Assembly (NCBI RefSeq): GCF_900115675.1
Contig: NZ_FOXI01000002.1
Coordinates: 310,001-374,000, forward strand
DNA: 64,000 bases
Reading direction: 5' to 3'
DNA from: Halolamina pelagica
GTDB taxonomy: Archaea; Halobacteriota; Halobacteria; Halobacteriales; Haloferacaceae
Shown here: one piece after another, positions 37,274-42,811 of the stretch
How the letters are laid out: each line of letters opens with the position of its first letter
How positions within the stretch are numbered: the stretch's first letter is position 1
Position numbers and translations under genes: made by a program
The notes under the pieces: model-generated
Databases searched by the model: none
What the model was told of the DNA's origin: nothing
Seen by the model: the letters and a program-made list of their open reading frames with translations, nothing else

Positions 37274-38611
37274 TCACTCGAACTCCTCGAGCGAGAACTG
37301 GCCCGACCGATCTTCGCCCACAGTTGGCCGGTCTGCAGGTTCCGCGGTCGCGTTCTCGGAAGCGTCCGGTTCGGCCGTGCTGCCGTCGACGACAGCCTCA
37401 CCCCGCGATTCGTGGCCGTCGAACCCGTCGAGGCTGGCCTGCTCGCCGGCAGTGAAACTCAGCTTCGAGACCCGAACCCCGAGCTTCCGGACCTCGCTGT
37501 CGGCGAACTCCTCGAGCAGCGAGAGCGCGACCTCCTCCACCAGTTCGGGCTCGTCGACGGGACCCGAGAGCGATTCGGCTCGCGTGTTCACGTCGTAGGG
37601 GGTCGTGACGACCTTGATGCCGATGGTCCGGTAGAGCGCGTCCTTCGAGCGGGCTCGCTCCGCGACCGCGGCGGCGAGCGCGCGAACCTTCTCCCGCATC
37701 GCCTCGCCGTCCGTGGTCGCCTCGGCGAACGACGACTCCCGGGAGAGGCTCTTCGGGAGCCCGGTGGGGGTGACCTCCCGGTCGTCGACGCCGCGGGCGC
37801 GGTCGTACAGCTCCCGGCCTCGGTCGCCGAAGCGATCCTGCAGGGTCCGAGGGTCGGCCGACGCGAGGTCGCCCGCGGTCTCGATGCCCAACTCCCGGAG
37901 GTCGCTCGCCCGGACGGGGCCGACGCCGTGGATCTCCTCAACCGGCAGCGGCGCGAGGAAGTCGGTGACGTCCCCCGGCGGCACCACGGTCAGGCCGTCC
38001 GGTTTGTCGTGGTCGCTGGCAACCTTCGCGGCGGCCATGTTCGGCGCGACGCCGACGCTCGCCGGCACGCCCACCTCGCGGGCGATGCGCTCGCGGACGT
38101 GCCGGGCGAGCCCCTCCGCGAGCGTGCGCCGCTCGGCCGCGCCCGAGGCGCTGGCCGGCGCGTCGACGGTCGCCCACGACGTGCGGTCGGTCACGTCGAG
38201 GTACGCCTCGTCGATGCTCACCTCCCGGACCGTGTCGGCGCAGTCGTGGAGGATCGCCTTCACCTCGCCGGCGACGGACTGGTAGAACTCCATGTCCACC
38301 GGGCGGTAGTGGCCGCGGTCGTCGTCCGCCGAGCCGAGGTCGGGGCGTTCGACGGGGGGCAGTCGCTCGACGGCCCGGGAGATGGGCTGGGCCGAGTCGA
38401 CGTCGTACTCCCGCGCCTCGTAGGAGGCGGTGGCGACGGCGCCGATGGTCTCGCCCGCCTCGTAGCCCATGCCGACGACGACCGGTTCGCCGCGGAGTGC
38501 CGGCTCTCTGAGGCGTTCGCAACTCGCGTAGAAGCAGTCCATGTCGACGTGGAGCACCACCCTGTCGGGCGACTCGTCGTCGCCGGTCCCCGGGAGGGTG
38601 CTTCCGCTCAT
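37274..38611 (-). CDS. dinB: DNA polymerase IV (Y-family, DinB)
   Basis: A 445-residue translesion polymerase. Catalytic motifs are RVVLHVDMDCFYASCERLRE with metal-binding Asp and the steric-gate Phe-Tyr pair, and REVSIDEAYLDVTDRTSW with the Asp-Glu pair. GVGPVRASDLRELGIETAG is the HhH-like thumb. The little-finger domain follows, then an acidic tail ending QFSLEEFE, which resembles a PCNA-interacting (PIP) box, as in other archaeal PolY enzymes. ATG 38611 is used. It lies next to the Nudix-IF-2B gene on the same strand. Confidence 0.93.
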   Translation of the reverse strand: MSGSTLPGTGDDESPDRVVLHVDMDCFYASCERLREPALRGEPVVVGMGYEAGETIGAVATASYEAREYDVDSAQPISRAVERLPPVERPDLGSADDDRGHYRPVDMEFYQSVAGEVKAILHDCADTVREVSIDEAYLDVTDRTSWATVDAPASASGAAERRTLAEGLARHVRERIAREVGVPASVGVAPNMAAAKVASDHDKPDGLTVVPPGDVTDFLAPLPVEEIHGVGPVRASDLRELGIETAGDLASADPRTLQDRFGDRGRELYDRARGVDDREVTPTGLPKSLSRESSFAEATTDGEAMREKVRALAAAVAERARSKDALYRTIGIKVVTTPYDVNTRAESLSGPVDEPELVEEVALSLLEEFADSEVRKLGVRVSKLSFTAGEQASLDGFDGHESRGEAVVDGSTAEPDASENATAEPADRPTVGEDRSGQFSLEEFE

Positions 38612-38679
38612 ACGCCGTGTTCGGAACGGGACGGAGAAGAGGGTTTCCCGCGCGCGGTGGAAGTGAAGTCGAAGGCGTG

Positions 38680-39975
38680 TTAGCCCCACTCGGCCCGTCG
38701 TCGATGCGCCACAGCCACCGCCCGGAGCTCGTCCCCCTCGAGCACGCCGTCCTCGGTGACGATCGCGTCGAACCGCTCGCCGGGCGTCGCGCCGAACGTC
38801 GGGTTCTCGGCCGCGACGTCGGCGTCACCGTCGGAGACCGCTGCGGGGTCGCGCTCCTCGCGGTCGAACGCTACGTCGCTCCCCTCACCGCCGTCGTTCG
38901 CTGCGGGCCGAACTTTGTCCCTCGTCGTGACCACGTAGCAGTCCGCCCCCTCCGCCGCCGCGACAGCCACCGCCCCGCGCGTGCCGACCTTGTTGACCAC
39001 ACGGCCGTCCGGGAGCACCGCGTCCGCGCCGACGAGCAGCGCGTCCACCTCGCGCTCGGCCAGTAGCTCCCCGAACGCGGCGTCGGTCGTGACGACCGTT
39101 TCGGCGGCCGTCTCGCCGGCGAGTCGCTCGGCGGCGGCAACGCCCTCCCGCGCCGGCCGCGACTCGGCGACGAGAACGAACTCGGGCTCGGCGTCGGCGA
39201 GCGCGGTCAGTACGGTCCCCGACCGGGAGAGCGTCGCCACGCGGTCCGGCAGGCGGTCGGCCGCGCTGCCGGCCGACCGTTCGTCAGCCGCAAGCGCGCG
39301 GTCGATCTCCTCGTTCGCCGCCTGCTCGACAGCTTCGGGGGTCGCCTCGTCGTTCGAAGCGTCCATCACCCGGTTCACGCGGTTGGCAACGACGGTCATC
39401 GACGGGCGGGCCTCCCGGAGCGTCCGGGCCGTGGCAGTCAGTTCGTCCCATTCGGTCCTCCCGCACTCGACACCCAGCGCGGCTTCGTCACGGAGGTGTT
39501 CCAGCGCGCGGACGGCGAGGTAGCTCGATCCGTGGTCCCGGTCGTCGGCGACTGTCTCCACGGTCGGCCGCAGGCGGTCGTAGGAGGTCCACAGCTCCGG
39601 GACCGTCTCCCGACGGATTATCTCGGTCGGCGGTACCCACTGGGCTTCCGTGGTCTCGTAGTTGGTGGTCACCTCGCGGATCCGGGCGTCGAACAGGTAC
39701 GGGTGGACGACCCACCGCGTCCCGAGATCCTCGTCGGCGACCTCGAACGGGGCAGCGCGACGGACGAGCGTCACGTCCGCATCCGGATCGAGTCCGGTCT
39801 CCTCCCGGATCTCCTCGCGGGCAGCGTCGTCGGGATCACTCTCGACGTGGCCGGCCACCGCCCCCCACTGGCCGCTGTAGGAGCCGACCCCGTCGCTCCG
39901 CCGGAACAGGAGCGTGTCGGCGTCGTGCCGCAAGAACACAGTGACGACCGGTGTCGTGTCTACCTCGTCGCTCAT
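38680..39975 (-). CDS. Nudix hydrolase fused to an eIF-2B-like domain
   Basis: A 431-residue fusion. Residues about 8-135 are a Nudix domain with the box GHVESDPDDAAREEIREETG. Residues about 150-430 match the eIF-2B alpha/ribose-1,5-bisphosphate isomerase/MtnA fold: SYLAVRALEHLRDEA, ESRPAREGVAAAERLA, the VDALLVGADAVLPDGRVVNK block with the conserved Asp, and NKVGTRGAVAVAAAEGA. Where isomerases of this fold carry a catalytic Cys, I see LSRSGTVLTAL with Ser, so the isomerase chemistry may be lost. The substrate is unknown. ATG 39975 with a TATA-like box about 37-46 bases upstream supports the start. Confidence 0.85.
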   Translation of the reverse strand: MSDEVDTTPVVTVFLRHDADTLLFRRSDGVGSYSGQWGAVAGHVESDPDDAAREEIREETGLDPDADVTLVRRAAPFEVADEDLGTRWVVHPYLFDARIREVTTNYETTEAQWVPPTEIIRRETVPELWTSYDRLRPTVETVADDRDHGSSYLAVRALEHLRDEAALGVECGRTEWDELTATARTLREARPSMTVVANRVNRVMDASNDEATPEAVEQAANEEIDRALAADERSAGSAADRLPDRVATLSRSGTVLTALADAEPEFVLVAESRPAREGVAAAERLAGETAAETVVTTDAAFGELLAEREVDALLVGADAVLPDGRVVNKVGTRGAVAVAAAEGADCYVVTTRDKVRPAANDGGEGSDVAFDREERDPAAVSDGDADVAAENPTFGATPGERFDAIVTEDGVLEGDELRAVAVAHRRRAEWG

Positions 39976-41375: not shown

Positions 41376-42356
41376 ATGCGGGAACGCGACGAGCCACGGA
41401 CCCACGGCCGGCTCCCGCCGGAGACGGCGCTGTCGCTGCTGTCGAACGAGGTTAGGGCGGCCGTACTCTGGCAACTCAGCGAGGCCCGCGGCGGCGGCGG
41501 GCCCCCGCCGCTGCTGTCGTTCTCAGAACTCAAGGCGCTGGCCGCGCCGGACGTCGACAGCAGTCGGTTCAACTATCACCTCCAGCAGCTCGTCGGCCCC
41601 TACGTCGAGCGCGTCGACGACGGCGACGCCTGGGGGGAGGCCAGTCGTCCGGTACCGGGCATGGCTGGCGACCCGGAGGAGGGGTACCAGCTCACCCCCG
41701 AGGGGACGACGCTGATCCGGACCGTCCGTGCGTGGTCCGCGGAGGGCGAGATCGACCGGGAGCTGGCGATCGACCACGACTGCGACTACTGCGGAACCGG
41801 GCTGACAGCGCGCTACGAGAGCGCGATCCTGGCCGTCCAGTGTCCGGGCTGTGAGTACCTCTACGACTACAACCTCACGCCGCCGGGCGTGCTCGAAGGG
41901 GCCGACGACGGGTTCGCCGACGTGGACGACGGGGATGTGCTCGACAGGGCCGCGGCGTACAACCGTGCCATCCGCCTCGCGTTCGCCCGCGGCGTCTGCC
42001 CGTACTGCGGCAACGGCGTCGACGCCGAGTTTCAGGACCCGGAAACCACTGGCTATCCCCGCGGGGACCGCCGCGCGGCGCTGATCCGCCGTGGGTGTTC
42101 ACACTGCGGGAACAAGGACAACCTCACGGTCGGCGAACTGCTGCTCCGGGAACCGCGGCTGGTCTCGTTCTGTCTCGACCACGGGCTGGACGTGACCCGA
42201 ACGCCCATCTGGGGGATCGAGTTCGCGGCGACCGACCGCCACACGACGGTCCGCTCGACCGACCCGTGGGCGGTCGCGGTCGACGTGACGTTCGCCGACG
42301 ACCGACTGACCCTGGTCGTCGACGAGTCGCTGACCGTCGTGGAGGCGGGAGAGTAG
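41376..42356 (+). CDS. ArsR-like winged-helix protein with C-terminal zinc-ribbon domain (DUF7351 type)
   Basis: A 326-residue haloarchaeal regulator. The N-terminal 110 residues are an ArsR-like helix-turn-helix (ETALSLLSNEVRAAVLWQLS, then SSRFNYHLQQLVGPYVERVD). The remainder is a Cys-rich sensor-like region: CDYCGTGL, QCPGCEYLY, VCPYCGNGV and GCSHCGNKD, four CxxC knuckles probably forming two zinc ribbons. The family is regarded as haloarchaeal regulators with unknown ligand. It starts 62 bases after the MFS gene on the same strand, and a TATA-like run at 41339-41350 suggests its own promoter. It is a candidate regulator of the MFS gene. Confidence 0.88.
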   Translation: MRERDEPRTHGRLPPETALSLLSNEVRAAVLWQLSEARGGGGPPPLLSFSELKALAAPDVDSSRFNYHLQQLVGPYVERVDDGDAWGEASRPVPGMAGDPEEGYQLTPEGTTLIRTVRAWSAEGEIDRELAIDHDCDYCGTGLTARYESAILAVQCPGCEYLYDYNLTPPGVLEGADDGFADVDDGDVLDRAAAYNRAIRLAFARGVCPYCGNGVDAEFQDPETTGYPRGDRRAALIRRGCSHCGNKDNLTVGELLLREPRLVSFCLDHGLDVTRTPIWGIEFAATDRHTTVRSTDPWAVAVDVTFADDRLTLVVDESLTVVEAGE

Positions 42357-42382: not shown

Positions 42383-42811
42383 CTACTTCAGCCGCTCCTG
42401 CAGGAAGGTGGGGTGCGCCGCGGTGATGCCGTCGATCTCGAGAACCTCCTCGTTGATCACGTCGCCGAGCGAGTCGCCGTCTTCGGCCCTGATCTCCGCC
42501 ATCAGCATGTGGTCACCCGAGGAACTGTACAGCGACTCGACCGACTCGAGCTGCTTGAGCGCGTTCGTGGCGTCGACGTACTGCTCGCTGTCGACGTCCA
42601 TCCCGACCAGCGCGATCGACTGCCCCGTGAGCTTCTTGGGGTCGACCTCGGCGGAGTAGCCGACGATCACGCCCTCGTCCTCGAGTTGGCGGACGTACTT
42701 CCGGACCGTCGGCTTCGAGACGTCGGCGCGCTCGGCGATCTCGGAGACCGACGCCTGCGCGTCCGCCTCCAAGATCTGCAGGATTCGGTCTTCCGTGGCC
42801 GACGTAGTCAT
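42383..42811 (-). CDS. Lrp/AsnC-family transcriptional regulator
   Basis: A 142-residue protein with an N-terminal helix-turn-helix (DRILQILEADAQASVSEIAE, SKPTVRKYVRQLEDEGVIVG) and a C-terminal RAM/AsnC ligand domain (GMDVDSEQYVDATNALKQLE). Archaeal Lrp proteins sense amino acids and regulate metabolism. It is the next gene after porB, on the same strand, but has its own TATA-like box 20-32 bases before ATG 42811. It may control amino-acid or 2-oxoacid genes; the porA-upstream hairpin at 45755 is a possible target. Confidence 0.9.
   Translation of the reverse strand: MTTSATEDRILQILEADAQASVSEIAERADVSKPTVRKYVRQLEDEGVIVGYSAEVDPKKLTGQSIALVGMDVDSEQYVDATNALKQLESVESLYSSSGDHMLMAEIRAEDGDSLGDVINEEVLEIDGITAAHPTFLQERLK

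Follow-up and report, generated by a model that had tools for sequence, protein, structure and literature searches.

A haloarchaeal Nudix/IF-2B fusion family with a fixed, cysteine-less pocket predicted to bind a sugar phosphate and a Nudix half that has decayed in many members

Two well-described systems frame what can be expected of a protein with an IF-2B domain. Archaeal ribose-1,5-bisphosphate (R15P) isomerase, R15Pi (PH0208, TK0185; model TIGR00511), carries a catalytic cysteine, Cys135 in PH0208 and Cys133 in the Tk enzyme, and the C135S variant of PH0208 is reported to bind R15P still but to carry out no isomerisation (PMC5789824), so that a serine cannot simply stand in for the cysteine. 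Human eIF2B-alpha, which sits in a decameric exchange factor, has a pocket of the same fold that lacks the cysteine and binds F6P or M6P, with sugar contacts that include E198 and N208; PMC8187479 states that homologues which bind a ligand retain these contacts, and that the beta and delta subunits do not.

Proteins that join a Nudix domain to an IF-2B domain are known as annotated genes. HVO_1934 of Haloferax volcanii is annotated as a "NUDIX family hydrolase/eIF-2B domain protein" of 43.2 kDa (PMC8576121) and shares its domain architecture with the protein described here; from name, architecture, size (the Haloferax profundi orthologue is 44.2 kDa) and genus, we infer that it is the family's orthologue in Haloferax volcanii. 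Its single deletion made no difference across the 12 conditions given in PMC3828320, and the same paper describes the double deletion of HVO_1934 and HVO_2706 as wild-type-like under various conditions, although the legend to its Figure 6 speaks of a panel showing conditions in which the double mutant differed. If the fusion were a subunit of a translation initiation factor, aIF2B, as its homology to eIF2B alpha, beta and delta and the study of HVO_1934 under the name "aIF2Bsu" (PMC8576121) would suggest, then the lack of a phenotype in the single deletion and the ease with which the double deletion was made would be hard to accommodate. The authors of PMC3828320 doubt the aIF2B annotation themselves, and the interaction data in PMC8576121 support neither an aIF2B complex nor a ternary complex. 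We disfavour this reading and regard it as very improbable. In the literature searched, the locus tag HVO_1934 appeared only in these two papers, and no published analysis of the fusion's pocket was found there. What is already known is the fusion as an annotated gene; what is new is the decay of its Nudix half around a fixed pocket without the cysteine.

The fusion gene and its pocket

The DNA analysed here, which we call the window, is a 64,000-nucleotide stretch of the Halolamina pelagica genome. It carries one such fusion, with the following parts and downstream neighbour:

38680..39975, minus strand: NUDIX/IF-2B fusion gene, 431 aa, ATG start; called as an open reading frame with Pfam matches, inferred orthologue of HVO_1934
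39598..39954, minus strand: NUDIX domain, residues 8-126; PF00293, E 6.9e-13; NudI fold match, Z 17.2
39790..39852, minus strand: Nudix box, residues 42-62; G42, E55, E58 and E59 kept, Glu54 at the place of the Arg of the REU motif
38737..39534, minus strand: IF-2B/R15Pi-like domain, residues 148-413; PF01008, E 1.7e-39; match to R15Pi 5yfs_A, Z 32.3
37274..38689, minus strand: DNA polymerase IV open reading frame, downstream of the fusion; a neighbour in the window genome only, as far as seen

Both domains score well above their curated Pfam cut-offs (NUDIX, 49.2 bits against 21.1; IF-2B, 136.2 bits against 22.4). In an AlphaFold2 model of the window protein built from 61 aligned rows (pLDDT 95.7, pTM 0.93), the top fold match of the IF-2B half is the R15Pi C135S mutant 5yfs_A (rmsd 2.6 over 287 residues), whose place at the top is happenstance, since four more R15Pi entries with bound ligand score within Z 1 of it; the Nudix half matches NudI (3n77_A, rmsd 2.4 over 131 residues) and 3grn (Z 16.6). 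By profile score and by its R15Pi/eIF2B fold, the window protein is a member of the IF-2B superfamily, and the joining of a Nudix hydrolase to an eIF-2B/R15Pi-like domain, which an earlier note on this DNA had read from the sequence, is borne out. The top NCBI models for the protein are those for R15P isomerase and MtnA, and it falls far below both cut-offs (84.5 bits against 314.1 for TIGR00511). The Nudix box of the window copy is intact, with E55, E58 and E59 in place, and on profile and box glutamates together the copy is a predicted hydrolase. The N-terminal half of the fusion has the fold of the NudI and MutT-type Nudix hydrolases but, unlike them, the family does not conserve the arginine of the REU motif.

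The ligand residues of PH0208 (PMC5789824) were mapped onto the fusion family by profile alignment, and their conservation was read from an alignment of 101 orthologues:

39214..39234, minus strand: TLSRSGT motif, residues 248-254; Ser250 replaces catalytic Cys135, Ser252 corresponds to Ser137 (5-phosphate); from the mapping and the 101-orthologue alignment
39532..39534, minus strand: His148, corresponding to Arg22 (1-phosphate ligand); His in 95/101
39406..39408, minus strand: Arg190, corresponding to Arg65 (1-phosphate ligand); Arg in 97/101, Lys in 4/101
39145..39147, minus strand: Glu277, corresponding to Gln166 (1-phosphate ligand); Glu in 101/101
39022..39024, minus strand: Asp318, corresponding to catalytic Asp204; Asp in 100/101, one gap
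38989..38994, minus strand: Asn328-Lys329, corresponding to Asn214-Lys215 (sugar and 1-phosphate ligands); 101/101
38914..38916, minus strand: Lys354, corresponding to Lys240 (5-phosphate ligand); 101/101

In the profile alignment, Ser250 (TLSRSGT) falls at Cys135 and Asp318 (VGADAVLPDG) at Asp204, and Ser250, Ser252 and Thr254 are each present in all 101 orthologues. The earlier note had quoted LSRSGT at the place expected for the cysteine and the Asp block VGADAVLPDGRVVNKVGT as retained, and both quotations are right, with the small correction that the change from Cys to Ser is common to the whole fusion family, not peculiar to the window copy; it is not a matter of chance. A second, partly overlapping set of loci gives the same result. 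In an alignment of 61 rows (A3: the window plus 60 of the 80 second-set loci), H148, S250, S252, T254, E277, D318, N328 and K329 are invariant (61/61), and K354 is conserved in at least 90%. A cysteine elsewhere in the active site, which the note had named as grounds for rejecting its claim, was also sought: a column scan of the 101 orthologues found no conserved Cys elsewhere in the IF-2B half, where the most Cys-rich column is 401 (20/101). The two cysteines that the window protein has in this half, Cys171 and Cys346, lie in a column that is mostly non-Cys (171, where E, gap, R, G, D and T are the commonest entries) and in one with Cys in 9 of the 101 (346). The family's most Cys-rich column, 97, belongs to the Nudix half (59/101).

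By this mapping, the side-chain sites for the 5-phosphate and the sugar stand, with both 5-phosphate ligands, Ser137 and Lys240, retained as Ser252 and Lys354 (101/101), and the 1-phosphate site is remodelled, with Arg22, Arg65, Gln166 and Lys215 becoming His, Arg, Glu and Lys, so that two of the four are kept. With the side-chain ligands of the 5-phosphate and the sugar retained, the prediction that a sugar phosphate can still be bound in the pocket is supported. None of the seven side chains of the AMP site (Arg124, Asp290, Arg229, Trp231, Asn209, Arg190 and Lys194) is present in the family profile consensus, in a region where the alignment is less sure than in the pocket. The fusion is like R15Pi in its fold, its catalytic Asp and its 5-phosphate and sugar side-chain ligands, and unlike it in the Ser for Cys, the His for Arg22 and the Glu for Gln166, in the loss of the AMP-site side chains and in the added N-terminal Nudix domain.

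Loss of the Nudix box and constraint on the two halves

Of the 101 orthologues, 70 have an intact or nearly intact Nudix box and 31 have lost it, a loss that again sets the family apart from the NudI and MutT-type hydrolases. At a Pfam threshold of E 0.01, the IF-2B domain is matched in every box-lost orthologue (31/31) and in every other one (70/70); NUDIX is matched in 66 of those 70 and in four of the 31, and NUDIX_4 in one of the 31. Two loci (L123 and L126) have, by eye, no recognisable Nudix sequence ahead of the IF-2B half, and a third (L115) starts near residue 90; the rate tests below were run without these three. Five orthologues with one doubtful box residue (L054, L059, L079, L090 and L092) count among the 70 in the per-residue and Pfam figures (alignment A1) and were omitted from the box counts on the tree and from the rate tests. 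Throughout the 31 box-lost members, the pocket residues S250, S252, T254, E277, N328, K329, K354 and D318 are unchanged, with one gap at D318.

On the best tree of the IF-2B half, in which a single HVO_2706-like row served as the sole outgroup, the box-lost label changes 10 times, and two of these changes are forced by well-supported branches. Four of the coded families (f1, f4, f5 and f10) include members in both box states, which, if inheritance was vertical, points to several losses of the Nudix half. The rates of change of the two halves were compared in pairs whose IF-2B halves are 70-97% identical. The pair median of dN(Nudix)/dN(IF-2B) is 0.86 for 128 box-intact pairs and 2.55 for 22 box-lost pairs, the pairs not being independent; by clade, with clades hand-picked from the IF-2B-half tree and singletons left out, the medians are 0.81 for 15 box-intact and 2.06 for 7 box-lost clades (p 3.5e-4), and one box-lost clade, the single close pair L109/L110, lies at 0.83, inside the box-intact range. 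In the Nudix half, dN/dS by clade is 0.22 for box-intact against 0.48 for box-lost members (p 8e-5), while in the IF-2B half the corresponding values are 0.26 and 0.30 (p 0.14). With pairwise re-alignment as a control for an alignment artefact, the box-lost set (1.39-2.43) and the box-intact set (0.66-1.25) separate fully (p 1.2e-5).

A Nudix half relocated elsewhere in the genome was not found in the 31 box-lost genomes at E 1e-15, where 14 gave a match at the degraded fused locus only and 17 gave none. Because the rise in rate is confined to the Nudix half and no relocated copy was seen, the IF-2B half is under selection independent of Nudix catalysis, with the two halves uncoupled. On these sequence comparisons, the Nudix half would be an optional partner, and the conserved job probably sits in the IF-2B half. 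Some constraint remains on the degraded Nudix half (dN/dS about 0.5), which may have a structural role.

These results bear directly on the earlier note's proposal that the IF-2B-like domain senses a sugar phosphate or a nucleotide and steers the Nudix hydrolase in nucleotide-pool sanitation. Both halves do lie in one chain, with the box intact or nearly so in 70 of the 101 orthologues, and the two halves are equally constrained in the 15 box-intact clades tested (dN/dS 0.22 for Nudix and 0.26 for IF-2B). If steering were the reason for the domain, however, the pocket should not have stayed unchanged in the 31 members that have lost the box and in those without recognisable Nudix sequence; of "sense and steer", the pocket's predicted fitness for a sugar phosphate stands and steering as its purpose does not. 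For the sanitation role the note had pointed to the adjacency of DNA polymerase IV, a hint that it called weak, and this support fell away: neither polymerase IV nor the adjoining MFS gene of the window was found near any of 180 related loci (100 + 80, some genomes being in both sets) within flanks of 5-6 kb per side where the contig allowed, and each query found itself in the window under the same settings. We consider the proposal distinctly unlikely, although the IF-2B half may steer the Nudix enzyme in box-intact members, the window copy included.

Distribution, related groups and gene neighbourhood

The fusion family is present in at least 110 of the 146 genomes of the order searched; nine of the 110 (G136, G093, G040, G045, G095, G111, G121, G133 and G131) are omitted from the 101-orthologue set. 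In a search of 246 phylum genomes that took in the order itself, none of the matches listed from outside the order covered both halves. A scan of the collection with an alignment as the query gave at least 496 relatives, of which the best 80 were kept as the second locus set, 8 of them sharing an exact 200-base stretch with one of the 100 first-set loci; with the single window protein as the query, the collection scan gave no match. The all-against-all search of open reading frames was run with an acidity filter. Fusion copies occur in four of 296 genomes of the Salinibacter phylum, two of these being already in the best-80 set. The six bacterial copies (L184, L191, L195, L204, L215 and L226), from Salinibacteraceae, a Rhodothermia MAG, two Gammaproteobacteria MAGs and a Bacteroidetes MAG, all keep TLSRS (6/6); horizontal transfer, or for some MAGs mis-binning, is their likely origin, and the Ser-bearing clade is mainly haloarchaeal. 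One genome outside the order has a stand-alone Nudix open reading frame of 140 aa (G468 contig 84, 4013-4432) with a match to the Nudix half of the fusion (E 6e-42), possibly a relative of the fusion's donor.

In a subfamily tree of 41 rows, the fusion family, R15Pi, the HVO_2706-like paralogue and the MtnA-like rows form one clade each, and support of 100/99 separates the fusion clade from haloarchaeal R15Pi; the deep joins are between long branches, and we make no claim for their order. The motif THCHS was read in 23 of 25 haloarchaeal R15Pi loci (one genome, G113, being included twice), the other two giving no clean pattern, and THDYS in four of the five HVO_2706-like sequences read, five of seven such loci having given a usable open reading frame. 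HVO_2706-like proteins resemble the fusion in lacking the cysteine and in occurring in the same archaeal order, the window's genome included, but they have Asp at the Cys place (THDYSSTVL), an altered Asp/Asn/Lys block (YNRIG or YNRVG), no Nudix domain that could be seen and a clade of their own. The one other IF-2B gene of the window's genome (G000 contig 18, L001 1288-2304) is HVO_2706-like, with THDYSSTVL and its Asp at the Cys place.

No R15Pi above the TIGR00511 cut-off was found in the window's genome. If the fusion filled that gap as an R15P isomerase working with Ser for Cys, then its best match in both fold and sequence, which is R15Pi, would be explained. The inactivity of PH0208 C135S (PMC5789824) and the two altered 1-phosphate ligands argue against this, as does the score of the window protein, so far under the TIGR00511 threshold, and simple replacement is also contradicted by the 59 of 146 genomes that, among the matches listed, hold both the fusion and an R15Pi above the cut-off. 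We regard such an isomerase as quite improbable. In the same count, 51 genomes have the fusion alone, 14 R15Pi alone and 22 neither (p 0.18), from which a coupling of the fusion to R15Pi is not clear. R15Pi occurs in 10 of 31 box-lost and 44 of 65 box-intact genomes (p 0.0018); supported branches give two independent pairs, for which a sign test is uninformative, and we claim no association between box loss and the absence of R15Pi. Replacement of RpiA by the fusion is ruled out by the presence of RpiA in 141 of the 146 genomes, and with RpiA near universal, plain ribose-5-phosphate isomerisation is a poor candidate reaction.

Several gene families, each named by Pfam on one member, recur around the 100 first-set loci. 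The F420-0 ligase gene cofE lies near 73, a gene for a luciferase-like monooxygenase, perhaps F420-dependent, near 63 and a metallophosphoesterase gene near 45, these being almost always upstream and divergently oriented; a gene for a D-2-hydroxyacid dehydrogenase lies near 40, and at 39 of those loci it is downstream and shares the strand of the fusion. None of these recurrent neighbours alone indicates a pathway. The window copy lies outside this setting of its relatives (L033-L132). Past the MFS gene, the window encodes a DUF7347/DUF7351 protein (41376-42356) that contains Cys pairs and weakly matches a zinc ribbon, and after it, on the opposite strand, an Lrp/AsnC-type regulator (42383-42811). 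Five bacterial loci had no common partner gene by eye. In the one Salinibacter locus read for it, that of Salinibacter altiplanensis, a ribose-phosphate pyrophosphokinase (PRPP synthetase) gene (L215 7533-8492) follows the fusion after about 270 bases on the same strand.

What the IF-2B half may do

In the view that we favour, the fusion family forms a Ser-bearing clade within the R15Pi/MtnA/eIF2B superfamily, and its conserved work falls to the IF-2B half. That work could be sensing. The main rival to our own reading makes the IF-2B half a sensor of sugar phosphates that, as in eIF2B-alpha, catalyses nothing; its output would be a partner protein or an oligomer state and not, or not only, the Nudix half. 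Ligand binding by eIF2B-alpha and by R15Pi C135S needs no cysteine, the fusion has in common with eIF2B-alpha an acidic residue at the Asp place (Asp318), the Asn (Asn328) and the phosphate Lys (Lys354), and HVO_1934 was pulled down with RpoB2 as bait (PMC8576121). On the other hand, human eIF2B-alpha carries Ala where R15Pi has its Cys and Glu where it has its Asp (PMC5789824, PMC8187479) and no Nudix domain, whereas the fusion keeps the catalytic Asp in 100 of 101 orthologues together with an invariant Glu at the Gln place. The second phosphate ligand of eIF2B-alpha, R132, falls at Gly253 of the fusion if Ala129 is taken as the Cys place, a placement that is ours, and the R15Pi AMP site is not recognisable in the fusion. 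The partners reported for HVO_1934 number one or two, none of them reciprocal among the aIF2B-like proteins (PMC8576121). A sensor whose output domain is dead or gone in cis would also be harder to explain than an enzyme, and we hold the sensor to be rather unlikely.

Our preference, tentative and somewhat short of an even chance, goes instead to an enzyme: the IF-2B half would act on a sugar 5-phosphate by chemistry that does not use cysteine, with the Nudix half as an optional supplier. The pocket would take a 5-phosphorylated, pentose-like compound without phosphate at C1, a C1 phosphate being unlikely because an invariant Glu replaces the Gln that met the 1-phosphate, and R15P isomerisation being unlikely because C135S PH0208 binds R15P without turnover (PMC5789824). 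Glu277 may offer a new acid or base near C1, and the Ser/Glu/Asp set would act on the compound in place of Cys/Asp. In box-intact members, the Nudix half may cut a diphosphate-linked, NDP-sugar-like compound and so feed the pocket, and it would have decayed where this supply became needless. The spread of the fusion to Salinibacter relatives and to MAGs labelled Gammaproteobacteria also fits an accessory enzyme. Spelled out in full, as a catalytic class new to the R15Pi scaffold with Ser/Glu/Asp for Cys/Asp, a 5-phosphorylated sugar without 1-phosphate as its substrate and a Nudix supplier that decayed several times beside a fixed pocket, the proposal is doubtful.

Several observations weigh against an enzyme. 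The HVO_1934 deletion made no difference in the 12 conditions reported (PMC3828320), the change from Cys to Ser abolishes isomerisation in R15Pi (PMC5789824), and eIF2B-alpha has a Cys-less pocket of the same fold as a pure sensor (PMC8187479). RpiA, present in 141 of the 146 genomes, leaves no need for a second enzyme to isomerise ribose 5-phosphate, and the degraded Nudix half, at a dN/dS of about 0.5, keeps constraint and so may still do something.

How evolution connects the sugar-phosphate isomerases with the stress sensor eIF2B is still an open question. Three groups of this fold occur in haloarchaea, distinguished by Cys, Asp or Ser at the catalytic position, and the Ser group is a natural test of how a pocket that has lost its cysteine can be kept for binding or for new chemistry, its pocket being fully constrained without Cys chemistry and many of its members being without an active fused enzyme. 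A published deletion strain exists for HVO_1934, the orthologue in a genetically tractable species. The decay of the Nudix half around a fixed, Cys-less pocket is a new point and worth a test at the bench.
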